Shown: piece by piece, positions 131 through 18,657 of the stretch
Numbering within the stretch: the first letter of the stretch is position 1
How the letters are laid out: each line of letters opens with the position of its first letter
Source of the DNA: Prevotella sp.
Lineage (GTDB): Bacteria; Bacteroidota; Bacteroidia; Bacteroidales; Bacteroidaceae
Direction: 5' to 3'
Assembly (NCBI GenBank): GCA_017469955.1
Contig: JAFUFJ010000013.1
Location: forward strand, 1 to 34,106
DNA: 34,106 nt
Notes under the pieces: model-generated
Told to the model about the DNA's origin: nothing
The model's input: only the letters and a program-made list of their open reading frames with translations
Databases searched by the model: none
Made by a program: the position numbers and the translations under genes

Positions 131-240
131 GAGAAAGCTAAGGGTTCAGCCCGAGAAGTCTATCAGTTCTGGGTGAGAAAGCTAAGAGTTATCGACCAGA
201 AAGCTATGACTTCTCGGGCTGAACCCTTAGCTTTCTTAAG
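131..240. repeat. 22-bp-period palindromic array A (5 units)
   Basis: Five consecutive 22-bp units start at 131, 153, 175, 197 and 219. Positions 4-5 of each unit are AA, position 8 is C and positions 15-16 are TT. Each unit is an imperfect dyad centred on position 10 (ideal core GAGAAAGCT-A-AGCTTTCTC plus a 3-nt spacer, often GC-rich). The array also folds on itself: 132-160 is an exact reverse complement of 208-236, a 29-bp perfect inverted repeat around a 47-nt centre. It sits between the stop of the partial gene at 126 and the end of recO at 279. There is no U-tract, so it is not a standard intrinsic terminator. Confidence 0.9.
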
Positions 241-248
241 TACCTTCA

Positions 249-273
249 CCGCCCTTCTTCAAGAGAAGGGCGG
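249..273. terminator. Hairpin between convergent gene ends (possible recO terminator)
   Basis: A perfect 10-bp stem (CCGCCCTTCT at 249-258, AGAAGGGCGG at 264-273) with a 5-nt loop lies just beyond the recO stop codon. Neither side has a good T-tract, so it may be a weak terminator or a 3'-end stabilising hairpin. Confidence 0.5.
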
Positions 274-278
274 GCGTT

Positions 279-1004
279 TCAGACGAAAAGCTCCTGAACT
301 ACGGGCAGGGAACGCAGTTCGGGAAACGAAGGAACGTGGAGTCGGTAGTAGGCAATGAGATGGTCTAAGATGCGGTTTCTTTGCGCGCGCGTAAATAGAA
401 AGAGGTGCATCGTCTCGTAATGCATGCGCATAAGACGCTCTATATAGGCAGCCTCGCCGGGCTCAACAAAGTCGGAATGCAAGGGCTGGGACGAGGAAAA
501 CTCGGCGCTTCTGAGGTCGAAGAAGGAGCCTTCACGATAGCCTTCAAGGTTAGGATAGAAACCTATGAACTGGGAAAGGCGCATGAGAAAGACCAAGTGG
601 AAGTTGGCTGCAGGCCGGCTTGTGGCATCAAGCCACTGCAGACTGCTGCTCACGTAGCCGAAGAGAGCTTCATTGCGCTGCTCGCCACGCGTAGCATAGG
701 TGAGGAACTCAGACAGGAAAAGTGCCAGAGAAAGCTTGCCGGCGTCGAAGGGAACAGAGACGTAAGGCATCTCCAGACGTACGTCGCGCAGCCGTTGAAG
801 GCGAGCCTGCTGGCGATGGTCAAACTCGATCATGAGCAGCGTCAGGGGCTGGAAAAGCTGTCTTTTCAGCTTTCCGCGCGCCGTCTTGGGCATGTTCAAG
901 AGGAACGACAACCGACCTGTCTGCTCCGTAAGCATGTCGACTATCAACTGGTTGTCTCCATACTTCAGGGCATTCAACACGACCGCTCTTGACTTGACAA
1001 ACAT
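279..1004 (-). CDS. recO: DNA repair protein RecO
   Basis: The 241-residue product has the RecO family layout. It begins with an N-terminal OB-fold (SRAVVLNALKYGDNQLIVD, then TEQTGRLSFLL), and continues with the helical C-terminal region typical of the family. RecO acts in the RecFOR recombinational repair pathway, where it helps load RecA onto SSB-coated single-stranded DNA. The length is normal for Bacteroidales RecO. No four-cysteine zinc finger is visible, which is common in this group. The start MFVKSRAVVLNAL is the natural one, with a TAATTTTG -7 box 25 bp upstream at 1029-1036. The gene is divergent from tRNA-Glu and appears monocistronic. Confidence 0.92.
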   Translation of the reverse strand: MFVKSRAVVLNALKYGDNQLIVDMLTEQTGRLSFLLNMPKTARGKLKRQLFQPLTLLMIEFDHRQQARLQRLRDVRLEMPYVSVPFDAGKLSLALFLSEFLTYATRGEQRNEALFGYVSSSLQWLDATSRPAANFHLVFLMRLSQFIGFYPNLEGYREGSFFDLRSAEFSSSQPLHSDFVEPGEAAYIERLMRMHYETMHLFLFTRAQRNRILDHLIAYYRLHVPSFPELRSLPVVQELFV

Positions 1005-1028
1005 GACTTGAAAACCTTACTTTGCAGA

Positions 1029-1036
1029 CAAAATTA
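1029..1036 (-). promoter_or_regulatory. -7 box for recO (TAATTTTG)
   Basis: The minus strand reads TAATTTTG, matching the Bacteroidetes -7 consensus TAnnTTTG, and lies 25 bp before the recO start. A good -33 TTTG is not seen at the expected distance, so the call rests on the -7 box and its position. Confidence 0.5.
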
Positions 1037-1075
1037 CTAAAAAACAGCCGTTTGAGGAAAATTTTAAGAAGAAAA

Positions 1076-1107
1076 TTTGGTCATAAAAGAAAAAACAACT
1101 AACTTTG
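1076..1107 (+). promoter_or_regulatory. Promoter for tRNA-Glu (TTTG-N20-TAACTTTG)
   Basis: TTTG at 1076-1079 and TAACTTTG at 1100-1107 match the Bacteroidetes -33/-7 pattern with a 20-bp spacer. The tRNA starts 22 bp after the -7 box. This promoter lies back to back with the recO promoter. Confidence 0.7.
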
Positions 1108-1128
1108 CACCCGCTAAAGAAGTCGCAT

Positions 1129-1203
1129 GGTCCCTTCGTCTATCGGTTAGGACGACAGATTTTCATTCTGTAAAGAGGAGTTCGACTCTCCTAGGGACTA
1201 CCA
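1129..1203 (+). tRNA. tRNA-Glu (anticodon UUC)
   Basis: A full cloverleaf can be drawn. The acceptor GGTCCCT pairs with AGGGACT (one G-U at the end). The D arm contains GGTTAGGAC, the anticodon stem is ACAGA/TCTGT around the loop TTTTCAT with anticodon TTC, and the T arm reads GAGGAGTTCGACTCTC. CCA is encoded at 1201-1203. Anticodon UUC reads GAA and GAG, so it is glutamate tRNA. It has its own promoter at 1076-1107. A GCGCA/TGCGC hairpin and a T7 run near 1269-1276 downstream could end the transcript. Confidence 0.96.
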
Positions 1204-1379
1204 ACATTAAATCCGCCATCCGCGCAGTGATGCGCTACCAACATGAGTTGGGACAAGGTGACGGAGGATTTTTTTGAAGGGCCCAAGCCCCGATAAAGAT
1301 CCGCCCAGGGCAGCCTTCACGACGTAAGACCCATAAGCTTTAAACAACCATCAAACAATTAAAAAATCAAACAACAAAA

Positions 1380-1634
1380 ATGGCAAACCACAAATCATCG
1401 CTGAAGAGAATCAGACAGACCAAGACTCGCACTCTTCACAACCGCTATTATGCAAAAACAATGCGTAATGCCGTACGCAAACTGCGCGCACTGACCAACA
1501 AGGAAGAGGCTGAGGCACAGTATCCGAAAGTACAGAAGATGCTCGACAAGCTGGCCCAGAAGAACATCATCCACAAGAACAAAGCTGCCAACATCAAGTC
1601 TGGATTGGCAAAACATATCGCTTCGCTCGGCTAA
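1380..1634 (+). CDS. rpsT: 30S ribosomal protein S20
   Basis: The 84-residue basic protein starts [20 protein letters not shown], the standard S20 N-terminus. The helical, alanine- and lysine-rich body ends with [18 protein letters not shown], the typical S20 C-terminal helix (HKNxAARxKSRL in many relatives). S20 binds 16S rRNA early in 30S assembly. The length is normal. The gene stands alone between tRNA-Glu and gyrB and is followed by a strong hairpin terminator at 1671-1713. Confidence 0.97.
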
Positions 1635-1670
1635 GAAGCATACCTTCGCAGCCCGACAGGCAGGCAACCA

Positions 1671-1713
1671 ATGGTCGCACACCTCAGAAAAGAGGCGTGC
1701 GACCATTTCTTTT
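1671..1713 (+). terminator. Intrinsic terminator after rpsT
   Basis: A 15-bp stem with one mismatch (1671-1685 pairing with 1692-1706; loop AGAAAA) is followed by TTCTTTT. It lies 36 bp after the rpsT stop. Confidence 0.85.
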
Positions 1714-1864
1714 CATCGCCAGAAACCAACGCCGGCAGCCACGGAAACACGCAAGACACGCCCAAAAGAAACACTTTTCGAAAAGAACCTTTGTCGAAGA
1801 CAAAAAACCATAAAAACAAGCACTTTTTCCAACAAAAAAGTTTCTTCATTTCGCGATTTTTTCG

Positions 1865-1872
1865 TATCTTTG
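1865..1872 (+). promoter_or_regulatory. -7 box for gyrB (TATCTTTG)
   Basis: TATCTTTG fits TAnnTTTG and lies 25 bp before the gyrB ATG. The -33 region (about 1841-1845, TTTCT) is only a partial match. Two short palindromes lie further upstream (1774-1785 and 1790-1804). Confidence 0.65.
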
Positions 1873-1897
1873 CAATCTATTAGACCAATAAAGCAAA

Positions 1898-3868
1898 ATG
1901 GCAGAAAACATTCAGAACGCAAACAACTACTCAGCCAGTAATATTCAAGTGCTGGAAGGACTCGAAGCCGTACGCAAACGTCCGGCCATGTATATCGGTG
2001 ACATCAGTGAAAAAGGACTTCACCACCTGGTCAACGAAACCGTCGACAACTCCATCGACGAGGCTATGGCCGGTTATTGCACCGACATCGAGGTGACAAT
2101 CAATGAGGACAACTCCATTACCGTACAAGACAACGGACGAGGAATACCCGTCGATGAACACGAGAAAATGCACAAATCAGCCCTTGAAGTCGTGATGACC
2201 GTGCTCCACGCAGGCGGTAAGTTCGACAAAGGATCCTATAAAGTGTCAGGCGGACTTCACGGCGTCGGTGTGTCATGTGTCAATGCTTTGTCGAGCCACA
2301 TGACCTCGCAAGTGTTCCGCGACGGAAAGATATATCAGCAGGAATACGAACAAGGCAAGCCACTGTATCCCGTGAAAGTGGTCGGCGAAACAACCCTCCG
2401 AGGCACACGTCAGCAGTTCTGGCCCGACGCATCCATATTCACTACCACCGTCTATCGCTGGGACATCATCGCCAGACGCATGAGAGAACTGGCCTTCCTC
2501 AATGCCGGAATCAAGATAACACTCACCGACTTGCGACCCGACGAGCAGGGACAAATCAAGCAGGAAGTATTCCATGCCAAGGACGGACTGAAAGAGTTCG
2601 TGCGCTACGTCGACCGCCATCGCACCCACCTCTTCGACGATGTCATCTACCTGAAGACCGAGAAACAAGGCATACCCATCGAGGTTGCCGTGATGTACAA
2701 CACCGACTACAACGAAAACATCCACTCATACGTCAACAACATCAATACCATTGAAGGCGGTACTCACTTGGCAGGTTTCCGTGCAGCATTGACAAGAACG
2801 CTGAAGAAATATGCCGATAATGACCCACAAATATCGAAACAAATCGAGAAGGCCAAGATCGAAATAGCCCCAGAAGACTTCCGGGAGGGACTCACAGCCG
2901 TCATCTCTATCAAAGTCGCAGAGCCTCAGTTTGAGGGACAAACCAAAACAAAGCTCGGTAACAGTGAGGTCACCGGTGCCGTTCAACAGGCCGTTGGCGA
3001 GGCATTGTCATACTATCTCGAGGAGCATCCGAAGGAGGCAAAACAGATATGTGAGAAAGTAGTCTTGGCCGCAACGGCACGCATTGCTGCCCGCAAGGCT
3101 CGCGAAAGCGTACAGCGTAAGAACCCGATGTCGGGCGGAGGCCTGCCTGGAAAGCTGGCCGACTGTTCGAACAAAGACCCGAAAGAGTGTGAGATCTTCC
3201 TCGTAGAGGGCGACTCTGCCGGCGGTTCTGCCAAGCAAGGACGCGACCGTTACACCCAAGCCATCCTGCCTTTGCGCGGAAAAATCCTGAACGTAGAGAA
3301 GGTTCAATGGCATAGAGTCTTTGAAGCCGAGTCGGTAATGAATATCATTCAGTCCATTGGAGTTCGCTTCGGCGTAGAAGGAGAAGGCGACCGTGAGGCC
3401 AACATTGATAAGCTACGCTATGATAAAATCATCATTATGACCGACGCCGACGTCGACGGTTCCCACATTGATACGCTCATCATGACCCTCTTCTACCGCT
3501 TCATGCCGAAGGTGATTCAGGACGGTCATCTCTATATTGCCACACCTCCGCTCTACAAATGCACCTACAAAAAGGTGAGCGAATACTGCTATACCGAGCA
3601 GCAACGCCAAGCATTCATCGACAAATATGTGGCCGGTGACGAGAATGCCACTGCCCTTCATACCCAGCGATACAAAGGACTTGGTGAGATGAATCCTGAG
3701 CAATTGTGGGAGACTACGATGGATCCGAAGACGAGACTGCTGAAGCAAGTCACCATTGAGAACGCTGCGCAAGCCGACGAAATCTTCTCGATGCTCATGG
3801 GAGACGACGTGGAACCGCGCCGGGAATTTATCGAAGCCAATGCTACTTACGCAAACATCGACGCATAA
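1898..3868 (+). CDS. gyrB: DNA gyrase subunit B (ATPase subunit)
   Basis: The 656-residue protein has all type IIA topoisomerase B-subunit landmarks. The GHKL ATPase motifs are ETVDNSIDEAMAGYC, DNGRGIPV and GGLHGVGVSCVNALS in the first 130 residues. The TOPRIM domain shows EGDSAGGSAKQGRDR near residue 437 and DADVDGSHIDTL near 515. The C-terminal block is QRYKGLGEMNPEQLWETTMDP-like. With GyrA it introduces negative supercoils using ATP. The length is typical of Bacteroidales GyrB, which lack the long insert seen in E. coli GyrB. The alternative, ParE, is less likely because of the QRYKGLGEMNP and PGKLADCS signatures. A strong terminator follows at 3882-3917. Confidence 0.95.
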   Translation: MAENIQNANNYSASNIQVLEGLEAVRKRPAMYIGDISEKGLHHLVNETVDNSIDEAMAGYCTDIEVTINEDNSITVQDNGRGIPVDEHEKMHKSALEVVMTVLHAGGKFDKGSYKVSGGLHGVGVSCVNALSSHMTSQVFRDGKIYQQEYEQGKPLYPVKVVGETTLRGTRQQFWPDASIFTTTVYRWDIIARRMRELAFLNAGIKITLTDLRPDEQGQIKQEVFHAKDGLKEFVRYVDRHRTHLFDDVIYLKTEKQGIPIEVAVMYNTDYNENIHSYVNNINTIEGGTHLAGFRAALTRTLKKYADNDPQISKQIEKAKIEIAPEDFREGLTAVISIKVAEPQFEGQTKTKLGNSEVTGAVQQAVGEALSYYLEEHPKEAKQICEKVVLAATARIAARKARESVQRKNPMSGGGLPGKLADCSNKDPKECEIFLVEGDSAGGSAKQGRDRYTQAILPLRGKILNVEKVQWHRVFEAESVMNIIQSIGVRFGVEGEGDREANIDKLRYDKIIIMTDADVDGSHIDTLIMTLFYRFMPKVIQDGHLYIATPPLYKCTYKKVSEYCYTEQQRQAFIDKYVAGDENATALHTQRYKGLGEMNPEQLWETTMDPKTRLLKQVTIENAAQADEIFSMLMGDDVEPRREFIEANATYANIDA

Positions 3869-3881
3869 GCGACAAACTCTG

Positions 3882-3917
3882 AAAGGCGAACTTGATAAGA
3901 GTTCGCCTTTTTTATTT
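3882..3917 (+). terminator. Intrinsic terminator after gyrB
   Basis: A perfect 11-bp stem (AAAGGCGAACT at 3882-3892, AGTTCGCCTTT at 3900-3910) with a 7-nt loop runs into TTTATTTT. It ends only 23 bp before the start codon of the next gene. Confidence 0.9.
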
Positions 3918-3940
3918 TAGCCTTATCAGACATTACTACA

Positions 3941-6352
3941 ATGAAAAAACTCCTTTTCTTCCTGCTTTTTCCAGCAGTTTCCACAGCCTTGCAGGCGCAA
4001 CAGCTGCCCATGCTGCTGTGGTATGACCGCGAAGCCAAGTATTTTGAAGAAGCACTCCCCATCGGAAACGGGCAGATCGGCGCAGTGATCTATGGCGGTC
4101 CAGACACAGACTCGCTACAACTCAACGACATAACCCTATGGACTGGCAAGCCATGGGACCGCGAAAGAGACGCAGAAGCCTATACGTGGATACCGAAGAT
4201 TCGCGAGGCTTTGTTCAATGAAGACTATCAGACGGCCGACAGACTCCAGCGACATGTCCAGGGGCCGGACTCCGAATGGTATGAGCCTCTGGGCACACTC
4301 ACGATAAAAGACCTGCATGTCAAAGAAGGCCCGGCTACCGACTATCGGCGAGAACTCGACATCGACCATGCCATTGCGCGCACCTCATACAGCCGCAACG
4401 GCATCCGTTATGAGCGTGAATACCTTGCCTCCTGCCCCGACCGCCTCATCGCCATCCGTCTGAAGGCTTCGGAAGAAAGGAGGCTGGCCGTTGCGCTAAG
4501 GCTCAAATCGCTGCTGCCTTACACGCTCGAACGGCGCGGAAGCAACCAGCTTCTCATGCATGGGCACGCCATCGGCGACGCCTCTGAGACCATCCACTTT
4601 ACGACATTGGTGCAGGTAGACTGCGGAAAGCAGGGGCTCTGGGGCACCGACGACGAGGGCAACCTCATCGTATCACAGGCTACCGAAGCCACCATCTACC
4701 TGACCAGCGAAACCTCTTTCAACGGCTTCGACAAGCATCCCGTGCGTGAAGGGCGCGACATCAAGACAGCCATCGACGACGACTCGAAGGCATGGAGAGG
4801 GCTGAAATATGCGAAAGTGAAGGCCCGCCACACGAAAGACTATCAGCAACTCTACGCCCGTATGCAGCTTTTCCTGGAGGGAAGCGTTGCCGACGAGACC
4901 CGCACCACTGACCGTCAACTGCTGCAGTACACCGACAACAACGAGCGAAACCCCTATCTTGAGACGCTCTATGCGCAGTATGGACGCTATCTTCTCATCA
5001 GCTGCTCGCGCACAAAGGACGTGCCGGCCAACCTGCAAGGCATCTGGAATCCCCACCTTCGGGCACCCTGGCGCAGCAACTACACCATAAACATCAACCT
5101 CGAAGAGAACTACTGGCCGGCAGAAGTGGCCAACCTCACCGAGACGACCCGCCCCCTCATCGCCTTCATCGGCCACCTTTCTGAGAACGGTAGGTATGCA
5201 GCACGCAACTATTACGGCATCCGCCAAGGATGGTCGGCCAGCCACAACAGCGACATCTGGGCCATGACCAACCCTGTCGGCAACAAGGAAGGCGACCCTG
5301 TTTGGGCCAACTGGAACATGGGAGGGGCATGGCTTTGCATGCTGTTGTGGGAGCACTATCTCTATACGCAAGACGAACAGTTCCTCGCCCAGACGGCCTA
5401 TCCGCTGATGAAGGGGGCTGCCGACTTCTGTCTTGCATGGCTCATCGAGAACCCCAACCGGCCTGAAGAGCTCATCACCGCGCCCGCTACTTCGCCAGAG
5501 AACATCTACATCACCGACAAAGGATACAGGGGCCAGACCCTCTATGGCGCCACAGCCGACCTTGCCATCATAAGGGAGTTGTTCGCCAACGTGGCTGAAG
5601 CCGGCAAGATCATGGGCGTTCCTGCCGGCGAGACGGAGCCCTTCCAGACGGCACTCCGGCGACTTCACCCCTACACCGTAGGCCAAAACGGCGATCTCAA
5701 CGAATGGTTCTACGACTGGGAAGACCTCTATCCGCAGCACCGACACCAGTCACATCTCATAGGACTCTATCCCGGACACCACTTCACCGACCCCGTTCTC
5801 AGGAAAGCTGCCGAGCAAACACTCCTTGACAAGGGCGACAACACAACAGGATGGTCCACGGGATGGCGCATCAACCTGTGGGCTCGGCTCCACAACAGCC
5901 GGCAAGCCTATCATCTCTACCGAAAACTCCTCACCTATGTGACGCCCGACAACTATGACGGACCTGACAAACGCGACTCTGGAGGCACCTATCCCAACCT
6001 CTTCGACGCCCACTCTCCGTTCCAGATCGACGGCAACTTCGGCGGAACAGCGGGCGTCTGCGAGATGTTGATGCAAAGCTCTTGCGAGTGGACACACGAC
6101 GCTTCAGCCTCCAAGCCACGACAAGTGGCCCGCATCGAGCTGCTGCCCGCACAGCCGAAAGAGTGGCCTTCAGGATCGGTAAAGGGACTGAAAGCCCGCG
6201 GAGCGTTCACCGTTGACTTCACGTGGAGAGACGGACGTGTCACCGAAGCCACCCTCAAGCCGGCCAAAGCACAGACCCTCCAGCTCGTCTGCAACGGCCA
6301 GTCACACACATACGACGTACGTCCGAACAAGACCCTGACACTTCATTTCTGA
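3941..6352 (+). CDS. Secreted glycoside hydrolase family 95 (alpha-L-fucosidase-like)
   Basis: The 803-residue protein begins with a signal peptide (MKKLLFFLLFPAVSTALQAQ). The GH95 N-terminal beta domain follows (EALPIGNGQIGAVIYGG, LQLNDITLWTGKPW), then an (alpha/alpha)6 barrel and a C-terminal beta domain. Residues matching the GH95 active site are visible: N384 and N386 in NYTININLEENYWPAE, E520 in ATSPENIY, and D697 in FQIDGNFGGTAG. GH95 enzymes are inverting and mostly cleave alpha-1,2-L-fucose from glycans; some members act on L-galactose. The protein is likely periplasmic or exported. It lies alone, with no SusC/D pair or other glycosidase beside it, and no promoter of its own is obvious between the gyrB terminator and its ATG. 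The family call is firm; the exact sugar is inferred. Confidence 0.92.
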   Translation: MKKLLFFLLFPAVSTALQAQQLPMLLWYDREAKYFEEALPIGNGQIGAVIYGGPDTDSLQLNDITLWTGKPWDRERDAEAYTWIPKIREALFNEDYQTADRLQRHVQGPDSEWYEPLGTLTIKDLHVKEGPATDYRRELDIDHAIARTSYSRNGIRYEREYLASCPDRLIAIRLKASEERRLAVALRLKSLLPYTLERRGSNQLLMHGHAIGDASETIHFTTLVQVDCGKQGLWGTDDEGNLIVSQATEATIYLTSETSFNGFDKHPVREGRDIKTAIDDDSKAWRGLKYAKVKARHTKDYQQLYARMQLFLEGSVADETRTTDRQLLQYTDNNERNPYLETLYAQYGRYLLISCSRTKDVPANLQGIWNPHLRAPWRSNYTININLEENYWPAEVANLTETTRPLIAFIGHLSENGRYAARNYYGIRQGWSASHNSDIWAMTNPVGNKEGDPVWANWNMGGAWLCMLLWEHYLYTQDEQFLAQTAYPLMKGAADFCLAWLIENPNRPEELITAPATSPENIYITDKGYRGQTLYGATADLAIIRELFANVAEAGKIMGVPAGETEPFQTALRRLHPYTVGQNGDLNEWFYDWEDLYPQHRHQSHLIGLYPGHHFTDPVLRKAAEQTLLDKGDNTTGWSTGWRINLWARLHNSRQAYHLYRKLLTYVTPDNYDGPDKRDSGGTYPNLFDAHSPFQIDGNFGGTAGVCEMLMQSSCEWTHDASASKPRQVARIELLPAQPKEWPSGSVKGLKARGAFTVDFTWRDGRVTEATLKPAKAQTLQLVCNGQSHTYDVRPNKTLTLHF

Positions 6353-6396
6353 CACACTCCGCCGGCAAATCGCCCGCAACACAACCCCTTCCGCCC

Positions 6397-6506
6397 GAGA
6401 AAGCTAAGGGTTCAGCCCCAGAAGTCTATCCTTTCTGGGTGAGAAAGCTAAGAGTTATCGACAAGAAACCTAAGACTTCTCACCCTGAAACCTTAGCTTT
6501 CTCAGA
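6397..6506. repeat. 22-bp-period palindromic array B (5 units)
   Basis: Units start at 6397, 6419, 6441, 6463 and 6485, in exact 22-bp register. Units 1 and 3 are identical to units 1 and 3 of array A over all 22 positions, while units 2, 4 and 5 differ. AA at unit positions 4-5, C at 8 and TT at 15-16 hold in all five. The ends are again inverted copies (AGAAAGCTAAGG near 6398 and CCTTAGCTTTCT near 6492). It lies 44 bp after the GH95 stop. Confidence 0.9.
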
Positions 6507-6643
6507 CACAAAGCAGGGAGTTTGCAAAAAGAACCCACAGGAAGCACTTCCTCCAGCCTATGCGAAGGGGTGGAAAACAACGAGAAAAACCATCAAGAAG
6601 GCTATGGTCTGACCATCTGTTTCCTGCCGTTTCGGACGATGAT
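6507..6643. other. Intergenic spacer between array B and a terminator
   Basis: No convincing gene, RNA or repeat is seen here. Short open frames on either strand have no family resemblance. It may be the distal 3' untranslated region of the GH95 transcript, which would run to the terminator at 6644-6667. Confidence 0.4.
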
Positions 6644-6667
6644 GCCCCGATGGAATGGGGCTTTTTT
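6644..6667 (+). terminator. Intrinsic terminator about 290 bp after the GH95 gene
   Basis: GCCCC (6644-6648) and GGGGC (6657-6661) enclose an 8-nt loop and are followed by T6. It is the first plausible terminator downstream of the GH95 gene and lies beyond array B, so the array would be transcribed. Confidence 0.7.
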
Positions 6668-6822
6668 GATGCCCGAGAGCGTATAATCGGCATCGGGAAC
6701 GGCTCTGTCGGCTGAGGAAACGGCAGAAAAAGGGAAAGAAAAAACAAACCGTTGACGCATAAGAATTCCCGTATTTCCTACAAAATTACTGCTTTATTTT
6801 CTCATTATCAAAGAAATCTTCG

Positions 6823-6830
6823 TAATTTTG
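6823..6830 (+). promoter_or_regulatory. -7 box for gpmI (TAATTTTG)
   Basis: TAATTTTG matches TAnnTTTG and lies 45 bp before the gpmI ATG. The region near 6797-6803 (TTTTCTC) is a weak -33 match. Confidence 0.6.
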
Positions 6831-6875
6831 CAATCTGAAAGAAAACATATCACAAATCAGTAGTAACAAGAAACT

Positions 6876-8396: not shown

Positions 8397-8404
8397 AAGA
8401 CCGA

Positions 8405-8445: not shown

Positions 8446-8451
8446 CAGCAT

Positions 8452-10437: not shown

Positions 10438-10440
10438 GAA

Positions 10441-10470
10441 AAGGACTTCCTGCGGGAAGGCCTTATTTTC
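10441..10470. terminator. Bidirectional hairpin terminator between convergent genes
   Basis: AAGGACTTCC (10441-10450) pairs with GGAAGGCCTT (10455-10464), with one mismatch, and is followed by ATTTTC on the plus strand and by TTTTCTTAT on the minus strand. The stem overlaps the stop codon of the AraC-type gene. Confidence 0.7.
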
Positions 10471-11341: not shown

Positions 11342-11381
11342 ATTTTTACCTAATTTTAGAAGAAGACGACTTATTTGGGGG

Positions 11382-11413
11382 CAAAGTTAGTCAAAAACGA
11401 GGGTAATGCAAAA
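11382..11413 (-). promoter_or_regulatory. Promoter P1 for the AraC-type gene
   Basis: On the minus strand TTTTG (11409-11413), a 19-bp spacer and TAACTTTG (11382-11389) form a near-ideal Bacteroidetes promoter. It lies about 40 bp upstream of the AraC-type start codon. Confidence 0.75.
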
Positions 11414-11468
11414 GAAAAGTCCTGAATTTTCTTTTCATTGCCGAGTGCAAACTAAGTTCGGCGTGAGC

Positions 11469-11500
11469 CAAAGTTAGTCAAAAACGAGGGTAATGCAAAA
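11469..11500 (-). promoter_or_regulatory. Promoter P2 for the AraC-type gene (duplicate of P1)
   Basis: An exact copy of P1 lies 87 bp upstream, with TTTTG, a 19-bp spacer and TAACTTTG. A further TAACTTTG at 11556-11563 may be the -7 box of the upstream-most, probably ancestral, promoter, whose -33 spacing is less ideal (about 21 bp). Confidence 0.7.
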
Positions 11501-11583
11501 GAAAAGTCCTGAATTTTCTTTTCATTGCCGAGTGCAAACTAAGTTCGGCGTGAGCCAAAGTTAGTCAAAAAGTCTGTATCTTC

Positions 11584-12507
11584 TCAAAAATTTTGGTGAA
11601 AATATGGTAAAATTTCCAATGCTTCTACATTGGCGATGATGTCGGGCAGCATGTCGCCTTCGACCGAGATGAGCACTCGATGGTGGGGAGAAGCGACAAA
11701 ACGTCCGCAGGTTTGCTCGTCGGTTTGACCTGTGCATACGTATTCTTGTCCGTCGCAGGCGACACGCTGTCCGCGCTTGGCTCCGCGCATCGTCACCCTC
11801 ACCCACCCTATGAACGGCTCATTGAAGACGTAATAGATGCCTTCAGGCTCGATGTCGAAGTAGTCGGCATGGCGCACATGAGCCACTCTTTCGGCCTCAT
11901 AGCAGCCCTCAAACCATTCGTCTTCCTCGCCGAAGGGTTCCGGACAGAGCCTTGAAGGCACCCATCTGGCAAGGTCGATGTCGTCGGAAGTCCACTTCAT
12001 GGGCATCAATGCCGGTTCTGACTGCTCATGGCCTTCGTCGGTCAGGCTGGTGCTTGCCGGACGGCAGAGCCACCCTTCGTCGCTGTCGACGGCAAAATGG
12101 CAGCCGTTGTTGTAGGCTCCTCTGAGCACGACGGCTATCTGTCGCGTGGTGGAATGGCGTGCAGAGGGCGAGTAAGCGACGGCAATGATGTTGGTGCCTG
12201 GATGGAGAAATCGCGCGATATCGAAACGGATGCCCGTGGCAGTGGTGTCGTTAATGGCCTCACGACATGGCATCATCACGTCAGTAGAGACGTTGCGCTC
12301 GTTGACAAACACCTCCATTCGCCCGCTCGTCATCACAAGAAGCGTGGCATAACGGGGTGCTTCGTCGAGTTCGATCTCTTCGCGAAACCACACTTGCATG
12401 GCGTCGTCGGCCTCGGGAAAGGATATCCACGGCACGCAGAAGTCTTGTCCCGACGCCTGGGAGGCGCAGGCAACGAGCAGCAGGAGGATATGGAAGAGTC
12501 GGCTCAT
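11584..12507 (-). CDS. Secreted protein with beta-sandwich (carbohydrate-binding-like) domains
   Basis: The 307-residue protein starts with a signal peptide (MSRLFHILLLLVACASQASG). I do not recognise a named family with certainty. The stretch VWFREEIELDEAPRYATLLV, followed by GRMEVFVNERNV, GIRFDIARFLHPGTNIIAV and IAVVLRGAY, resembles the accessory beta-sandwich domains found at the N-termini of alpha-L-rhamnosidases and family 2 glycosidases. No catalytic domain follows, so it may be a stand-alone sugar-binding or structural protein, or a remnant of a larger enzyme. It has an ideal promoter at 12527-12557 and precedes the AraC-type gene, with the 87-bp repeat between them. Confidence 0.65.
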   Translation of the reverse strand: MSRLFHILLLLVACASQASGQDFCVPWISFPEADDAMQVWFREEIELDEAPRYATLLVMTSGRMEVFVNERNVSTDVMMPCREAINDTTATGIRFDIARFLHPGTNIIAVAYSPSARHSTTRQIAVVLRGAYNNGCHFAVDSDEGWLCRPASTSLTDEGHEQSEPALMPMKWTSDDIDLARWVPSRLCPEPFGEEDEWFEGCYEAERVAHVRHADYFDIEPEGIYYVFNEPFIGWVRVTMRGAKRGQRVACDGQEYVCTGQTDEQTCGRFVASPHHRVLISVEGDMLPDIIANVEALEILPYFHQNF

Positions 12508-12526
12508 CTTCGTGGTATTATCACTG

Positions 12527-12557
12527 CAAAATTACGCTTTTTCGGCCGATAATCAAA
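12527..12557 (-). promoter_or_regulatory. Promoter for the secreted 307-residue protein gene
   Basis: The minus strand has TTTG (12554-12557), a 19-bp spacer and TAATTTTG (12527-12534), an exact match to the Bacteroidetes consensus. It lies 20 bp upstream of the start codon. Confidence 0.75.
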
Positions 12558-12634
12558 ACATTTCGGGCATAAATGGCACGCCATCGGCACATGAAGCGTG
12601 GCAGAGATGGCGAGAATGGGCGAGACCCGCCACT

Positions 12635-12744
12635 GAGAAAGCTATCCTTTCAGCCCGAGAAGTCTATGGGTTATTGGTCAGAAAGCATAGGTTTATTGGC
12701 CAGAAAGCTAAGACTTCTCGGGGTGAAAGCTAAGCTTTCTCGGG
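12635..12744. repeat. 22-bp-period palindromic array C (5 units)
   Basis: Units start at 12635, 12657, 12679, 12701 and 12723. AA at unit positions 4-5, C at 8 and TT at 15-16 are kept in all five. The last unit carries AAAGCTAAGCTTTC, close to the ideal dyad of the family. Fold-back is weaker than in A, because unit 1 has TCCTTTC where A and B have AGGGTTC. It lies upstream of the promoter of the 307-residue gene and downstream of hsp20. Confidence 0.88.
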
Positions 12745-12798
12745 GACAGAGGATGAAGATGCCGGGATGAACCCTGGGCGTTTCGTGGAAAAAGGGAC

Positions 12799-12831
12799 AG
12801 GAGAAAGGCCGTCGGCCGGCCGTTTTCTCCT
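12799..12831. other. Strong GC-rich hairpin between two repeat arrays
   Basis: AGGAGAAAGGCCG (12799-12811) folds onto CGGCC plus TTTCTCCT (12817-12831) with a 2-nt bulge. It lies between array C and the type-3 array. On the minus strand a T5 run follows after 6 nt, so it could be a second terminator for hsp20, but this is uncertain. Confidence 0.5.
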
Positions 12832-12844
12832 CCATCCCGGCCCG

Positions 12845-12976
12845 CTCTCAACTGCTCATCGGCCTGCTCTCAGCTGCTCATCGGCCCGCCCTCAACTGCT
12901 CATCGGCCTGCTCTCAGCTGCTCATCGGCCCGCCCTCAACTGCTCATCGGGCTGCTCTCAACTGCTCATCGGGCTG
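12845..12976. repeat. 22-bp-period array of a third type (6 units)
   Basis: Six units start at 12845, 12867, 12889, 12911, 12933 and 12955. Each reads C-[TC]-CTCA-[AG]-CTGCTCATCGG followed by a 4-nt end (CCTG, CCCG or GCTG). Units 1 and 3 differ at only one position, and units 2 and 4 are identical. The sequence is GC-rich and unlike arrays A-D, but the period is the same. It lies between array C and the hsp20 terminator. There are no spacers, so it is not a CRISPR array. Confidence 0.95.
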
Positions 12977-12986
12977 CCGTGTCTGC

Positions 12987-13021
12987 AAAAACAAAGGCGC
13001 GCCCTTGGCAGGGTGCGCCTT
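12987..13021 (-). terminator. Intrinsic terminator after hsp20
   Basis: On the minus strand AAGGCGCACCC pairs with GGGCGCGCCTT (13011-13021 with 12994-13004, one mismatch), followed by TGTTTTT. It lies 22 bp after the hsp20 stop. Confidence 0.8.
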
Positions 13022-13042
13022 GTTCTCCTCCTGAATGCGCCG

Positions 13043-13483
13043 TTAGTCGATGGCAATCTGCCGATGTACCGTCTGCTTTTCCTGCACGAACTTGGGCAGG
13101 TCGACCGTCAGCACGCCGTCGTTTACACGGGCTGCTATTTTATCTTTCTCCACGTCGTCGGGCAAGATCAGAGTCTGCTCGAACTTCGTATAGTTGAACT
13201 CACGGCGCAGATAGTGGGCCTTCTTGTCCTCATCCTTCTTCTCTTGCTTGCGCTCCATTTTGATAACAAGGTTGCCTTCCTCGTTGATAGTCACTGAGAA
13301 GTCTTCCTTCTGCATGCCGGGAGCGGCCAGTTCGACGGTGTAAGCATTGTCGCTTTCGATGACGTTGATGGCCGGTGCCGTAGCAGCTGCACGAGGCATG
13401 TAGTCGGTATTGAAAAAGTCGTTGAACACTTCAGGTAACCAAGCGTTTCTGTGAATCATTGGTAACATAGTCATTTCCTCCAT
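13043..13483 (-). CDS. Small heat shock protein, Hsp20/alpha-crystallin family
   Basis: The 146-residue protein has the alpha-crystallin domain from about residue 37. It starts with NVIESDNAYTVELAAPGMQ and KEDFSVTINEEGNLVI, includes FEQTLILPDDVEKDKIAARV, and ends with the consensus NDGVLTVDLPK. The C-terminal tail has an I-x-I type motif (QIAID) used in oligomer assembly. These ATP-independent chaperones hold unfolding proteins under stress. The start is uncertain: MEEMTMLPMI offers in-frame ATGs at 13483, 13474 and 13468. It is divergent from the TPR regulator gene, and no clear promoter was found. Confidence 0.93.
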   Translation of the reverse strand: MEEMTMLPMIHRNAWLPEVFNDFFNTDYMPRAAATAPAINVIESDNAYTVELAAPGMQKEDFSVTINEEGNLVIKMERKQEKKDEDKKAHYLRREFNYTKFEQTLILPDDVEKDKIAARVNDGVLTVDLPKFVQEKQTVHRQIAID

Positions 13484-13666
13484 TTTTATTAATTGGTTCT
13501 ACTTGTTTTTAATTTCTTTCCCTTGCGGGTTCACTGTCATAGGTGCAAGATGCATACCAACGAACCGGCGTGTGTCATAATGACAAAATATGTGTCAATC
13601 TGTCAGAAATCAGTCTTAAAACAGGCTTGTCGACGAGAAAAACGCAGGCCTTTCGAAAGAATTATG

Positions 13667-13674
13667 TAACTTTG
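13667..13674 (+). promoter_or_regulatory. -7 box directly before the TPR regulator gene (TAACTTTG)
   Basis: TAACTTTG matches TAnnTTTG and lies only 10 bp before the ATG at 13685. If used, the transcript would start within a few bases of the start codon. No -33 TTTG is seen at the usual spacing. Confidence 0.45.
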
Positions 13675-13684
13675 CCCATAGGAT

Positions 13685-15151
13685 ATGAAACGACTTCTGA
13701 TACCGCTCATGGCAATAATGATGCTGCTCGCGGGCTGCAACGGCACTCCCGGCGAGGCGCAAGACAGGCAGGAGAGCGAGGCAAAGGCCTGGCTTGACAG
13801 CGCGCGGACGTACATTTCACGGCAAGACCTGCGACGGGCGATGGTGGCTTTGAAGCAGGCTGAGAAGACCATCGGCGACAACAGCAGCCCTGAAACGTCC
13901 TATCAGGTGTACAGATACATCGCGTGGGTGAACGAGAGCAGCGGGGCAAGCCTGGCTGCTTTGCCCTATGAGCAGCGCGCATTGGCCTGTGCCGAGGCCA
14001 TGGGCAACGCCAATCATGTGGCTGATGCCTTGCTGGCCAAGGCCAACACCCTGTTCAACCTGCAGATGAACGACAGCGCCTTCTACTACAATCAGCGCGC
14101 CGCACGCATGTCAAAACACCTCAATGAAGGACGGCAGTCGGTCGTTCTACGGCAGCAGGGCTACTATGAGATGCTCAACAACCAGCTGAAAGAAGCCGAG
14201 CAGCACGCCCGCAAAGCACTTGAACTGGCCGACGACGCATCGGCTTCGGCCAACGCACAGGCCCTGCTCTGCCAGGTATTGATCCTGCAAGGACGCCACA
14301 AGGAGGCCGAACAGCTGACGGCTTTGGAGCAGAAAGACAGCCAGTCGGCCCCGCTGCACAACCGGTTGGCGCTGAGAAGCGAACTGCTGGAACGGCAGGG
14401 CGACTACCGACAAGCACTGGCTGCATTGAGAGAACTCAAAGAGCTTGACGACTCTCTTACGGCAGAACTCAGCCGACTCGACATCGTAAGGCTGCAAAGT
14501 GACTACGACCGGGCCGTCATTCAAAGCGAAAAAGCCCGGCAGCAGCTCGCGATATCCATTGCCGTCATCGTCCTGCTGTGTCTGGTCTTTGCCCTTGCGA
14601 TATGGTATTACCAGCACCAACAGACGCTCTACAAGCACTACAGAGACCGGCTGGCAAGCGTCAGAGAGGACATCGAACACCACATCGCAGACAAGGATTC
14701 TACGATTGAAAGCATGAAGAAACAACTCGACAAGAAGGTGGAAGACCTCGAAAACATGCAGCGAAAACTGCCTCAACAACTGCGTACCGACCACACCTTC
14801 GACAGCATTGCCACCACCAAGCGGGGCATCGATGTGCTATATTCCATCGTCAAAGAGGAGAACATCAGCCAGATGGGCAAGCGTGAACAGCAAGCCGTCA
14901 CCAGCGTGATGCAGGCCATTGACCCCGACCTGTACGAGCTGTTGGCCGACAAAGACTTGGCACTCACGCCGAAAGAGACTTTCTTCTGCATCATGGAACG
15001 CAACCATATGAACGAACAACAGAAAGCCATCGCCTTCTGTTCTACCGAGCAAGCAGTCAGGTCGGTGAAGAGCAGACTGGGAAAGAAAATCGACCTTAGC
15101 CGGCTGAACAGCCCGAAACAACAGGCCTTCACAACCCCTTTACAGGCATAG
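13685..15151 (+). CDS. Membrane-anchored TPR protein with cytoplasmic coiled coil and HTH-like end
   Basis: The 488-residue protein has an N-terminal hydrophobic segment ending in a lipobox-like LLAGC (residues 14-18). About 250 residues of TPR-like helical repeats follow (SARTYISRQDLRRAMVALKQ, NQLKEAEQHARKALEL, LERQGDYRQALAALREL). A single transmembrane helix lies near residues 288-309 (LAISIAVIVLLCLVFALAIW), then a charged coiled coil (about 320-370). The last 60 residues contain LTPKETFFCIMERNHMN and STEQAVRSVKSRLGKKI, which resemble a helix-turn-helix. Bacteroidetes have many such sensors with extracytoplasmic TPRs and a cytoplasmic DNA-binding end; the role as a one-component regulator is inferred. 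Its target is unknown. Confidence 0.7.
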   Translation: MKRLLIPLMAIMMLLAGCNGTPGEAQDRQESEAKAWLDSARTYISRQDLRRAMVALKQAEKTIGDNSSPETSYQVYRYIAWVNESSGASLAALPYEQRALACAEAMGNANHVADALLAKANTLFNLQMNDSAFYYNQRAARMSKHLNEGRQSVVLRQQGYYEMLNNQLKEAEQHARKALELADDASASANAQALLCQVLILQGRHKEAEQLTALEQKDSQSAPLHNRLALRSELLERQGDYRQALAALRELKELDDSLTAELSRLDIVRLQSDYDRAVIQSEKARQQLAISIAVIVLLCLVFALAIWYYQHQQTLYKHYRDRLASVREDIEHHIADKDSTIESMKKQLDKKVEDLENMQRKLPQQLRTDHTFDSIATTKRGIDVLYSIVKEENISQMGKREQQAVTSVMQAIDPDLYELLADKDLALTPKETFFCIMERNHMNEQQKAIAFCSTEQAVRSVKSRLGKKIDLSRLNSPKQQAFTTPLQA

Positions 15152-15170
15152 CCCATCGACCTCTCCCAAT

Positions 15171-15220
15171 AAAAAAGCAACTGCACAGACCTTCCGGCTA
15201 AGGAAAATCTGTGCAGTTGC
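15171..15220 (-). terminator. Terminator between convergent genes (for the M6 protease gene)
   Basis: A perfect 13-bp inverted repeat (GCAACTGCACAGA at 15177-15189, TCTGTGCAGTTGC at 15208-15220) has a minor inner stem and is followed on the minus strand by TTTTTTATT. A second small GC hairpin (15229-15246) lies next to the stop codon of the minus-strand gene. Confidence 0.85.
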
Positions 15221-15246
15221 TATGATGTGCCGGCGGCTTCGCCGGC

Positions 15247-18200
15247 CTATTTCACGATCTTGCGTCCGCGACGAACGACGACACCCTTGTAGTTGTCGCT
15301 CACACGCTGGCCCGACAAGTTGTAGACAGGAGCCTTTTCAGCATCATCTGCATCGACGGTTGTGATGCCCGTAAGTACTTCAGGACTCTTGGTAAGGATA
15401 ACAGTCAGCATGTCAATGTCATCGTCTACGATGTGTCCGAACACGCCAGTAATGTCAAACATCTTACCGTCAATGTTGGCAGGCACCACAATATCGTCGC
15501 GCATCAGTGCGTTGGCTATGTAAAGAGGGCTGTCACTCGACGCGTCGCTGGCCAGGTAGAAGGGCTGCATGAACTCAGCAAGCGAGCATTCCTTGAGCAC
15601 AACCAGGTTGGAAGTGAGCGGAGATGCCAGCAGCTTCTCATTGCTATCAAGGGCAAGCAGCTCGGCAATAGTCGTCGTGATCGGTTCGGCTTCAGCACCT
15701 TCACTGACGGTGATTGTCTCGACGTTTGTCAAGCCTTCTGCCTCTTCAAGGTAAGCCATCCCGTCCTCAACGCTATAGAGACCTATCACTTCTCCGTTAA
15801 GGATGTCGTTCTCTTTCATCGACAGTTCCACCGTGAGAGAGACGGCTCCAGTGGCATCTCTGATGATAGCATCCCCGTCTTCGGCAACGATTACCTGCGC
15901 ATTTGTCAGCTTAAGAGCCACATAAGTCTCATTGTCCTGCTCCTTCAACTCTGCGATATTATCTACAGAAACGTAGTCTGGGAGGGGGCTCCATGCCGTG
16001 TCTTCTTCGGGGCTTTTCAGCAGATAGAGCTCGTCAATGATTTCGCCGTTGAGGATGTTTGTTCCGAATATAGCCGTGACATTGAAACGTTTGTTGTCGA
16101 TATCTGTCGGGACTTTGAGGTTCTTGATGCCCAAAGTACCGTATAGACGGGCACGTTTGTCACCCACGACTGCCCACACTCCTCCGTCACGAACGAGCTC
16201 AACTGTCTTGACAAGCACCATGTCGGCATAGTCGTTTTCAGTGAGTTCTTCGAAAGAAACCTCATGAGCTTCGAGTGCTGCTCCCGTGGAAACTGTGACA
16301 GCAGTGAGGTCGGTCTGGCCGGCTATGGGCTGTGCTATCGGCATCTTGTTGCGTGTTCCAGTCTGTAAATAGAGCACTCCGTTGAGGTGATTGCTACGCA
16401 AAGGCGACAATCCTACGTTGTCCAAGACGAGTGCACCGGTGGCATCTCTGATGTAGATGTCTGTGCCATGTACGTAGAGAACCTCAGCGTCGCTGAGCGT
16501 AAGGATGCACTTTGTGCCTTCTGCCTGTTGCTTGAATTCGGCAATATTGTCGACGATCGGCTGGTCTTCGACGGTGACTTTGCAGGTTGCAGAGAACTTT
16601 CCGTCGTCAGTTGTGGCTGCGATGACGCACGTTCCGGCAGCGACTCCCGTCACTTTTCCTTCGTTGTCAACCGTAGCTATCTGCTCATTGTCGGACTTCC
16701 AGGTGACCGATGTGCTGATATAGGAGGGCACTGGTTCCCATTGCATCGTGTGGCTGATGCCTACACCGATGGTGAGTTCTTCTTCGACGGTGATGCCTTT
16801 GAGCACGTATGTGTCTTCGATGTCGAAGGTGATGACGCCGTTTCGCTCCTGGATGTTGGTGAGTCCCCACTGGGTTTCCTCGCCCGACCAAGTGAGAAGG
16901 TTGGCCGGTGTGGTGGCGTTGTTGAGCTCTGTCACGCCTCTTCCGCCGGGGAACGGGTCGTTGGCGCTGGCCCTTCCCTGCCATCCTGCAGCCCTTACGA
17001 GCTCATAGTAGTTGTGGCTGGGGTTGTTGTTGACGCGGTTGTAGGCCCAGACACTGGTGTTTGTCGAGTCGACACGGAACACCAGCATACCGTGACCGGG
17101 CAGTTCTGCGTTCCACTTTGTTTGCTGTCGGTTTTCGATATAGAATGTTTCGTTGCGCACAGGTGTCGTGATACGATAGCCTGTATTGCTTGCGTCGATG
17201 CTCTGAAGGGTATACGATCCTTCGGAGGTAATGGTCTTTGGTTCGGTGAATCCCACGGCTGTGCGCTCGAGAAGCGAATAGCCTGCGGGGGTACGCCCGT
17301 AGTTAAAGTAGCTGCCTCCGGCCATGATCGACCAGTCAGCAGGGTGGTTGCTCGAGCCGTTCTCTTCGTAGTCGGCGTCATAGAAGTCAGGCAGTCCGAG
17401 CACGTGTCCGAACTCATGGCAGATGGTTCCGATGCCGTCAATGGTTGTTGTGCCATAGCTGGTCCATCCATAGAGCTCGACTGAGCTGGCATAGTCGCCT
17501 ATGCGTACGCCGTCTTTGCGGATGTTGCTGTAGTAAGCGAGGCTGTATCTGTGGGGCCAGAACAAGCGGCTATCGTTGCCACTGTAGTTGGCACCGTTGC
17601 CAGCCACGATGAAGTAGACCATGTCGACGACGCCATTATTGTCGCGGTCGTACTGACTGAAGTCGACATCGGCGTCGGCTGCGTTGATGGCTGCTGTGAG
17701 AATAGCCGTTGCATTCGATGTTCCCTGGGCGTCATACTGGCTGTAGTCGACCGAGTAGGGTCCGTAAACATCGAATTGGGGCTTGAATTTTCCTGCTGAG
17801 TTGTCGCTGAAATAGTCGCGCACACTGCCCGTATACTGCACACGCTGGCCGGTGGTTGAGCGGTAGCCTGTGTAGTTTTCTTTGTTGAACATGTCGACCA
17901 TGATGTCGTGATAGTCGGTGCGAGAGAACTTCTTATCGTTATACTCCACGAGGATAACCAGACCGCGGAAGTTGTTGTAGTCGTAGCGGCTTGCGCGCTG
18001 AGGGGCACGGGCCTTCGAGCGATTGCTCATCTCGGCGTCGTACATCTGCTTCACCTGAGGCCGCATGTCGGGAGCCTGATACTTCGCCTGGCCGGCCAGG
18101 AAGGCCTGCTCCGTGGCCGAACGACGGTCGGCATCGTGAGCCACCTGGGCGGTAGCCGTCAGCTGTCCGCCCTCCAGACGGGCGTATACATAGTAGCCTG

Positions 18201-18390
18201 CCTCATTTTTCACCACCGAATAGCCGTCGGTTGTGGTATTAAAACTTAGCCATTCGTCGCCATGCAGGCGCAGGGTCACGCTGCTTCCGTCGGGCTGATT
18301 CACTTTTACTGCACCCTTGTGGGCGGGTACTGCCAGCAATGTACACACATTGAAAAGGGCAATACTAAGTATCAAGTTTAGTCGTCTCAT
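15247..18390 (-). CDS. Secreted M6-family metalloprotease with Ig-like and OB-like repeats
   Basis: The 1047-residue protein has a signal peptide (MRRLNLILSIALFNVCTLLA). An M6 (immune inhibitor A-like) zinc metalloprotease domain follows, with the catalytic helix ICHEFGHVLGLPDFYD (HEFGH at 325-329) and downstream DWSIMAGGSYFNYGRTPAGY. A Big_2-type bacterial Ig domain spans roughly 530-612 (WKSDNEQIATVDNEGKVTGV). Two related repeats begin at about 613 and 808 (VDNIAEFKQQ and VDNIAELKEQ, each with IRDATGA), probably OB-fold domains. It ends with VYNLSGQRVSDNYKGVVV and RRGRKIVK, the Prevotella-type sorting-like tail. It probably degrades proteins outside the cell. It has its own promoter at 18416-18446 and its own terminator. 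Confidence 0.88.
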   Translation of the reverse strand: MRRLNLILSIALFNVCTLLAVPAHKGAVKVNQPDGSSVTLRLHGDEWLSFNTTTDGYSVVKNEAGYYVYARLEGGQLTATAQVAHDADRRSATEQAFLAGQAKYQAPDMRPQVKQMYDAEMSNRSKARAPQRASRYDYNNFRGLVILVEYNDKKFSRTDYHDIMVDMFNKENYTGYRSTTGQRVQYTGSVRDYFSDNSAGKFKPQFDVYGPYSVDYSQYDAQGTSNATAILTAAINAADADVDFSQYDRDNNGVVDMVYFIVAGNGANYSGNDSRLFWPHRYSLAYYSNIRKDGVRIGDYASSVELYGWTSYGTTTIDGIGTICHEFGHVLGLPDFYDADYEENGSSNHPADWSIMAGGSYFNYGRTPAGYSLLERTAVGFTEPKTITSEGSYTLQSIDASNTGYRITTPVRNETFYIENRQQTKWNAELPGHGMLVFRVDSTNTSVWAYNRVNNNPSHNYYELVRAAGWQGRASANDPFPGGRGVTELNNATTPANLLTWSGEETQWGLTNIQERNGVITFDIEDTYVLKGITVEEELTIGVGISHTMQWEPVPSYISTSVTWKSDNEQIATVDNEGKVTGVAAGTCVIAATTDDGKFSATCKVTVEDQPIVDNIAEFKQQAEGTKCILTLSDAEVLYVHGTDIYIRDATGALVLDNVGLSPLRSNHLNGVLYLQTGTRNKMPIAQPIAGQTDLTAVTVSTGAALEAHEVSFEELTENDYADMVLVKTVELVRDGGVWAVVGDKRARLYGTLGIKNLKVPTDIDNKRFNVTAIFGTNILNGEIIDELYLLKSPEEDTAWSPLPDYVSVDNIAELKEQDNETYVALKLTNAQVIVAEDGDAIIRDATGAVSLTVELSMKENDILNGEVIGLYSVEDGMAYLEEAEGLTNVETITVSEGAEAEPITTTIAELLALDSNEKLLASPLTSNLVVLKECSLAEFMQPFYLASDASSDSPLYIANALMRDDIVVPANIDGKMFDITGVFGHIVDDDIDMLTVILTKSPEVLTGITTVDADDAEKAPVYNLSGQRVSDNYKGVVVRRGRKIVK

Positions 18391-18415
18391 TGTCTATTTT
18401 TATAGATTAGTTTTG

Positions 18416-18446
18416 CAAAAGTACAAAAAATATGCGGAATAGCAAC
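18416..18446 (-). promoter_or_regulatory. Promoter for the M6 protease gene
   Basis: The minus strand shows TTG (about 18443-18446), a 19-bp spacer and TACTTTTG (18416-18423), 25 bp before the start codon. This matches TAnnTTTG. Confidence 0.65.
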
Positions 18447-18525
18447 ACAATTAACATTATTCAACTAAAATAGTTTCAATCTGCAACCTGTAGGCTCATG
18501 GCCGAGAGGACTGAGGGGGCTGATT

Positions 18526-18657
18526 GAGAAAGCTGAGAAGGTTGGTTGACAAAGCATAGGGTTTAGCTCCAGAAGTCTAAGGTTTCTTGTCAATAAAGCT
18601 ATCCTTTCTCACCCATAAAGCTATGACTTCTGGGGCTGAACCCTTAGCTTTCTCGGC
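18526..18657. repeat. 22-bp-period palindromic array D (6 units)
   Basis: Units start at 18526, 18548, 18570, 18592, 18614 and 18636. AA at unit positions 4-5 and C at 8 hold in all six; TT at 15-16 holds in all but the first. The last unit matches the last unit of array A for its first 18 bases. Units 2-3 are an imperfect reverse complement of units 5-6, so the array folds back like A. It has one unit more than A, B and C. It lies between the M6 protease promoter and the terminator of the upstream operon. Confidence 0.9.

Follow-up and report, generated by a model that had tools for sequence, protein, structure and literature searches.

What keeps a series of variable DNA units in an exact 22-bp register at several separate places of one bacterial chromosome? 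The question is raised by a 34,106-bp stretch from Prevotella sp. (contig JAFUFJ010000013.1 of assembly GCA_017469955.1, positions 1 to 34,106; hereafter, the window), in which four intergenic arrays are composed of successive dyads with AA and TT at fixed positions. We found that these arrays belong to a high-copy family with strict internal constraints, that the chromosome around them carries an A/T lattice with a period of approximately 11 bp, coherent over 2-3 kb and written mainly in third codon positions, and that the arrays are placed in phase with this lattice. The arrays may be the strong sites of a structure that packages DNA in repeats of 11 bp, a proposal for and against which we regard the case as evenly balanced.

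The array element and its copies

One shared 107-bp element is present at all four sites (Table 1), consisting of five 19-bp dyads joined by 3-bp spacers in exact 22-bp register. All four arrays reported in the preliminary description of the window were recovered in that register; of its count of 5, 5, 5 and 6 units, the five at each of the first three sites stood, whereas the core of copy 4 also comprises five, and the supposed sixth unit is a degenerate flanking one, the one that lacks TT at positions 15-16. Its outer units are mostly complementary to one another, and the element has an orientation; as a whole, it is an imperfect palindrome, with best self reverse-complement identities of 77, 71, 69 and 67% for copies 1-4, respectively (the best shift of copy 4 differs from that of copies 1-3 because 132 bp were given for this copy). 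Scored as chains, the window arrays reach 18-23, while none of three mononucleotide shuffles of the window exceeded 6. As in the preliminary description, a simple satellite was rejected, and so were clustered regularly interspaced short palindromic repeats (CRISPR), since the spacers are 3 bp long and the units vary, instead of being near-identical repeats with long unique spacers.

The preliminary description had allowed that the arrays might be a local coincidence, should they occur nowhere else or should the register fail in other copies. This did not hold: a search of the own genome, 2.26 Mb in size and 75.6% complete, with R1, a profile model built from 30 array copies, placed the element at no fewer than 133 distinct places (150 of 1672 candidates scored; palindromic copies appear on both strands in the match lists of R1 and of the Prevotella genomes G380 and G100). 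For the analysis of the array grammar, we used 119 distinct copies selected from own-genome stretches with a weight matrix that had been built on 30 of these copies; hence, the selection favours intact sites. In these copies, 1187 of 1190 half-sites (AA at positions 4-5 or TT at positions 15-16) are intact, so that AA/TT recur every 11 bp nearly without variation, while the adjoining bases vary. The three central bases read TAA, TTA, ATA or TAT in 580 of the 595 units, and thus a TpA step lies in nearly every dyad centre; AAA, TTT, AAT and ATT centres were never observed, compared with approximately 124 expected from the column frequencies. The half-site triplets are mostly drawn from a short list (AGC, GTC, CCC, ACC, CTC, TCC and AGG), and linkage between positions is strongest within units, with little across them. 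The arrays are best described as dispersed intergenic DNA sites, ten half-sites long, in which AA/TT recurs once per 11-bp helical turn and successive turns alternate to form 22-bp dyads.

Nearest-neighbour copies differ at 6-28 of the 107 positions; hence, they are not fresh duplicates. Among the 1706 exchanges between nearest copies, C/G (451), C/T (353) and A/T (317) were the commonest, and 1658 of the differences fell in 63 variable columns against 48 in the 44 columns preselected as conserved, a contrast that is partly produced by construction. Judging from the sequences, we read the arrays as old, diverged copies that would be held under constraint, with no fresh burst.

Table 1. Features of the window (positions in the 34,106-bp stretch).
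Feature	Position	Strand	Details
Array copy 1	131..237	-	five dyad units, 107-bp core; R1 match 131-236, E 4.3e-30
Array copy 2	6397..6503	-	five dyad units; R1 match E 7.7e-28
Array copy 3	12635..12741	-	five dyad units; R1 match E 2.8e-27
Degenerate sixth unit	18526..18547	+	precedes copy 4
Array copy 4	18548..18654	+	five dyad units; R1 match E 5.4e-26
11.02-bp A/T lattice	1..34106	.	genes and intergenic DNA; overall stronger at ~1-19000, weaker at 19000-34000
Further 22-bp tandem repeat	12838..12977		6.4 copies, ~100 bp from array copy 3; other motif, equal period
Tandem duplication	11382..11555		87-bp stretch, perfectly duplicated

The 11-bp A/T lattice

The register of the arrays does not end at their borders. 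Across 115 copies, the array phase beat 20 other phases in 37 of 37 consecutive units, 32 of which lie outside the array, over approximately 350 bp on each side, and this reach extends into the neighbouring genes. That the register runs on through the genes, forming an 11-bp lattice across the genome, could not be seen in the preliminary description. In the window, the A/T line lies at 11.02 bp and its power rises with the length of the spectral window, amounting to 33 times the background in four 8-kb windows. The arrays were left unmasked in these spectra and in the phase correlation of contig C6; they were masked in the spectra of 20-kb stretches, the codon-position swings, the phase-prediction test, the P. 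communis comparison and the 20-genome panel described below. In 20-kb stretches, the 5-kb spectral peak reached 23.5 in contig C15, 27.0 in C6 and 28.9 in C4, with a median over periods of 0.9, and the C15 value comes from 160 kb in which our finder sees no array. The arrays are unevenly distributed across the contigs: positions 1-166000 of C15 (166 kb) hold no listed array despite the strong lattice.

The lattice keeps its phase over kilobases and across strands. Demodulated at 11.02 bp, the phase correlation (in noise units) at distances of 220 bp, 2.6 kb and 5.5 kb was 1.57, 0.64 and 0.10 in C15 and 2.29, 0.53 and 0.10 in C6; the coherence length is 2-3 kb, and the phase drifts slowly along C15. 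Adjacent genes in C15 agree in phase in all four strand combinations (38, 12, 32 and 11 pairs, 93 in total), with a mean cosine of 0.71-0.75. Hence, the direction of transcription does not set the phase.

Most of the signal resides in synonymous choice. When the phase was predicted solely from neighbouring DNA at distances of 45-700 bp, the AT content of third positions ranged from 0.263 in the trough to 0.661 at the peak over 107,534 sites; third-position AT at a given site is thus predictable from DNA hundreds of bases distant. At sites with a clear local phase, the swing was 0.41 at codon position 3, 0.14 at position 1 and 0.09 at position 2, and AA and TT peaked where GC, CC, GG and CG dipped; intergenic DNA also follows the lattice, like positions 1 and 2 with smaller swings than position 3. 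In C15, a single synonymous-codon shuffle within genes lowered the 5-kb peak from 23.5 to 7.3, and the peak by part was 24.0 for third positions, 7.6 for non-coding DNA, 3.4 for position 1 and 2.5 for position 2.

The arrays sit in this lattice in phase with the DNA that flanks them. Within a tolerance of 1.5 bp and with duplicates removed, 109 of 114 own arrays agree in phase with their flanks, where 27% would be expected at random; in a second, partly overlapping set, all 23 of 23 did so. The same tolerance gave 11/14, 13/17, 5/6 and 3/5 arrays in phase in the Prevotella genomes G184, G006, G268 and G012, respectively (duplicates removed). In lattice genomes, the arrays are the most perfect pieces of the lattice.

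Within the window, the lattice is stronger in the initial 19 kb and weaker along the TonB-receptor, SusD-type and metallopeptidase genes that follow (19000-34106), possibly because these genes were acquired recently or are highly expressed.

Occurrence in related genomes

The organism is close to rumen Prevotella isolates, RUG047 among them, with a best gyrB match of 94% amino-acid identity. R2, a generic profile built from 20 arrays of several species, matched at E <= 1e-4 in 163 of 398 genomes of the genus and, in a set spanning the phylum, in 5 of 296 genomes, the own genome counted each time; nine candidates were scored per genome in the R2 and R1 genus scans, so that copy counts are floors. 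Two of the phylum matches (G643 and G651, from another genus of the same family) contain 22-bp chains, and in the loci of two others (G512 and G573) our finder showed no 22-bp chain. Four G651 loci (L190, L195, L198 and L201) hold 22-bp arrays of the GAAAC..GTTTC type, unlike the AAnnC..GnnTT type. R1 was far more restricted, with matches in 5/398 genus genomes at 1e-7 and in 5/40 at 1e-3, the own genome included in both. By these sequence profiles, each species carries an array sequence type of its own, and in the loci read across species the chains are 3-8 units long. A motif-free lag scan pointed the same way: 22 was the only lag with matches in 6 of 11 Prevotella sets, with motifs that differ by species, whereas G162, G380 and G061 gave some matches at other lags and G010 none (G201, whose stretches hold masked N runs, was excluded from this reading). 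Four G380 loci (L287-L290) carry similar or near-identical arrays with homologous flanks and a TGATAATCA palindrome approximately 22 bp before the array. The frequency of TGATNATCA in array loci was 0.28 per kb in G014 and 0.65 in G012, compared with 0.05 in the array loci of the own genome.

The lattice was strongest in the own genome, with a third-position swing of 0.313, followed by G268 (0.199), G016 (0.185), G184 (0.173), G006 (0.130) and G138 (0.111); by the same method, E. coli K-12 (0.006 over 50 kb), G040 (0.003), G266 (0.008) and 14 gyrB loci of relatives (0.009) were flat. In a panel of 20 genomes of the genus (20-400 kb each), 11, G162 among them, had an A/T swing of 0.04-0.16 at periods of 10.93-11.02 bp. 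Single named loci gave peaks of 4-6 at other periods (e.g., L107, 6.25 at 10.56), and thus one locus alone is weak evidence; the P. communis locus (L088) showed no clear 11-bp line.

A proposed packaging structure, its rivals and known systems

Among the suggestions made in the preliminary description, a putative binding platform for a dimeric protein, based on the correspondence of 22 bp to about two helical turns, fits best, given AA/TT every 11 bp and the TpA centres. We propose that an abundant architectural protein, acting as a dimer with a 22-bp footprint, would polymerise on DNA or wrap it with an 11-bp repeat. The protein would touch AA/TT in the narrow minor groove at every turn, and the DNA would bend at the TpA step of the dyad centre. 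Along genes, it would select for AT in phase, with codon choice fitting the genes to the structure, and the arrays, being free of coding constraint, could serve as high-affinity nucleation or anchoring sites. More tentatively, and as something possible rather than probable, some Prevotella chromosomes may be continuous 11-bp lattices that fit a regular nucleoprotein filament, whose position would set codon choice over kilobases and whose nucleation or phase-setting sites would be the arrays.

Several of our results weigh against such a structure. G380 has 152 array matches (both strands counted) but no lattice, and its arrays are phased with their flanks in only 1 of 9 cases, while the lattice of G016 is strong, yet R2 gives no match there at 1e-4 (9 of 1098 candidates scored) and 60 kb show a single lag-22 stretch. 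Thus, the arrays and the lattice are linked where both exist, yet separable. Close to arrays, the power of the lattice is only slightly above that of array-free DNA (6.0-6.6 at up to 4 kb from an array, versus 4.5). Moreover, the lattice is patchy: 9 of the 20 panel genomes have little or none (A/T swing below 0.03), and, taken jointly, the gyrB loci from the closest named relatives, including P. communis, are without it. The packaging protein itself is hypothetical. HU-type proteins were considered as the on/off determinant and rejected, because every one of the 20 panel genomes has the HU families PF00216 and PF18291, which hence do not explain where the lattice is present or absent. Finally, certain triplets are nearly fixed by position (AGC at 1L in 113, GTC at 2L in 102, GTC at 4R in 99 and AGC at 5R in 114 of the 119 copies), which implies shared descent or an architecture beyond the lattice alone.

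The most serious rival, which we consider rather unlikely, is that the arrays are a species-specific dispersed repeat, such as a miniature inverted-repeat transposable element (MITE), a foldback element or a relative of the PINSR repeat discussed below, spread by transposition or conversion, with the 22-bp format as its internal history; their in-phase placement would then be a by-product, since a 110-bp module keeps phase. The fixed triplet order across the 119 copies, the restriction of R1 to few genomes, the near-identical G380 copies with homologous flanks and the homologous arrays of G100 all speak for it; the latter, mostly of five units, are embedded in longer repeats, of which 26 copies gave longest alignments of 99-384 bp each (queries cut 150 bp on either side of the array). 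Terminal inverted repeats, a trait of MITEs and foldback elements, are also present, the outer units being complementary at most pairs and the inner units not. However, target-type direct repeats were not in excess at any length from k=3 to 10 with 5 bp of play at the ends (at k=3, 40 observed against 42.0 in re-paired flanks), and on this ground transposon insertion was rejected. The own copies show no evident flank homology outside the register, they retain AA/TT despite the divergence described above, and their in-phase fraction far exceeds the approximately 27% of random placement. No empty array site could be demonstrated among the named relatives compared, because these did not keep the gene pairs that flank arrays. 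The mobile foldback element suggested in the preliminary description is consequently weakened, by the lack of a direct-repeat excess and by copies standing in phase with the flanking DNA. A phage origin was rejected as well: 14 IMG/VR stretches share one exact 17-mer, which is about chance by a rough estimate, and the generic finder shows no array there.

Two further explanations seem improbable to us. The arrays could be operators of a large regulon, i.e., ordinary transcription-factor sites, as their dyad half-sites, exact spacing and intergenic location (118 of 119 copies are clear of the genes predicted by our simple, purpose-made caller) would allow. Their setting is not that of operators, however: where both neighbours were called (n=114), 62 copies lie between tandem, 31 between convergent and 21 between divergent genes, the copies sit closer to the ends of genes than to their starts (median distances of 107.5 and 193 bp, respectively), and the lattice is left unexplained. 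As for the lattice, a mutation or repair bias that depends on phase could let AT accumulate on one face of DNA held on a regular scaffold, without any selection, and this possibility, to which we give little credence, also counts against the proposed structure. The order of the swings (codon position 3 well above 1 and 2) agrees with it, but structural selection predicts the same order, the AA/TT and TpA rules of the arrays exceed a mutation gradient, and a scaffold that keeps register over kilobases would still be needed.

A structured RNA or terminator hairpin is very improbable, and the structured RNA suggested in the preliminary description found no support: the four window arrays do fold beyond their shuffles (z -4.7 to -12.5) and, in the 119 copies, outer units pair above expectation (1R/5L 34 versus 19.2; 1post/5pre 53 versus 39.0), but the inner arms avoid complementarity (3L/3R 0 versus 8.4; 2post/4pre 4 versus 11.3; 2R/4L 11 versus 14.1), and Rfam covariance models at gathering scores match a single transfer RNA (tRNA) in the window and no other RNA family.

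If the filament reading were true, it would be the bacterial equivalent of chromatin directed by sequence and kept in register over kilobases, in a lineage whose DNA sequence preserves a legible trace of nucleoid structure at the kilobase scale. Helix phase, and not translation alone, would then govern much of the synonymous codon choice, with consequences for analyses of codon usage, mutation rate and horizontal transfer. The purpose of the bacterial ~11-bp periodicity would also become directly testable, since arrays that are short and present in many copies could serve as bait DNA for the protein responsible.

The preliminary description knew of no named element of this kind, a statement that needs a caveat, as PINSR, a 188-bp intergenic repeat of Prevotella intermedia and P. 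nigrescens of which two strains of P. intermedia carry 177 and 184 copies, is a possible relative (PMC4755523). In the available account, PINSR is held to be non-coding, approximately three quarters of its sites are common to two strains, and it is reported absent from other clades by polymerase chain reaction (PMC4755523). Our arrays are likewise intergenic and of high copy number, but that account of PINSR contains neither 22-bp dyads nor a lattice, and describes a repeat without terminal inverted repeats, whereas our element has inverted ends (PMC4755523). PINSR is thus the nearest named repeat and a candidate relative; the G100 arrays, whose longer repeats would fit that group, could possibly be identical with it. 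The BrickBuilt MITE of Porphyromonas gingivalis is also intergenic, with internal tandem units of 23 nt, and is described as having a leader, a tail, terminal repeats of 12 bp and a proposed GAAA target duplication, one strain carrying 19 copies (PMC4596501). Our units are 22 nt long, and our copies have no evident common flank sequence. The accessible literature on bacterial repeats and ~11-bp periodicity yielded no 22-bp Prevotella arrays and no kilobase-coherent Prevotella lattice.

The phased A/T clusters (PATCs) of Caenorhabditis elegans have a helical period of approximately 10 bp. They are described from the non-coding DNA of a eukaryote (PMC7725773), whereas our lattice is mostly carried by third codon positions. 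Closer to our case is the ~11-bp A-tract periodicity of bacterial genomes, discussed as 'class A flexible patterns' or a 'structural code' (PMC3431218, PMC4132750, PMC7537859, PMC1242344). According to these sources, the cyanobacterial periodicity is carried by codon positions 1 and 3, and Mycoplasma hyopneumoniae J has a 10.9-bp signal across almost its whole genome (PMC3431218, PMC4132750, PMC7537859); the periodicity of E. coli extends over at least 1000 bp, by a figure legend, with approximately 2% variation (PMC7537859). In our comparison with E. coli, the third-position swing was 0.31 in the own genome and 0.006 in E. coli (50 kb), and the own line holds its phase over 2-3 kb, a phase that the dispersed 22-bp arrays share. 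Hence, while ~11-bp periodicity itself is well documented in bacteria, the lattice described here exceeds the E. coli control in both strength and range and is tied to dispersed arrays.

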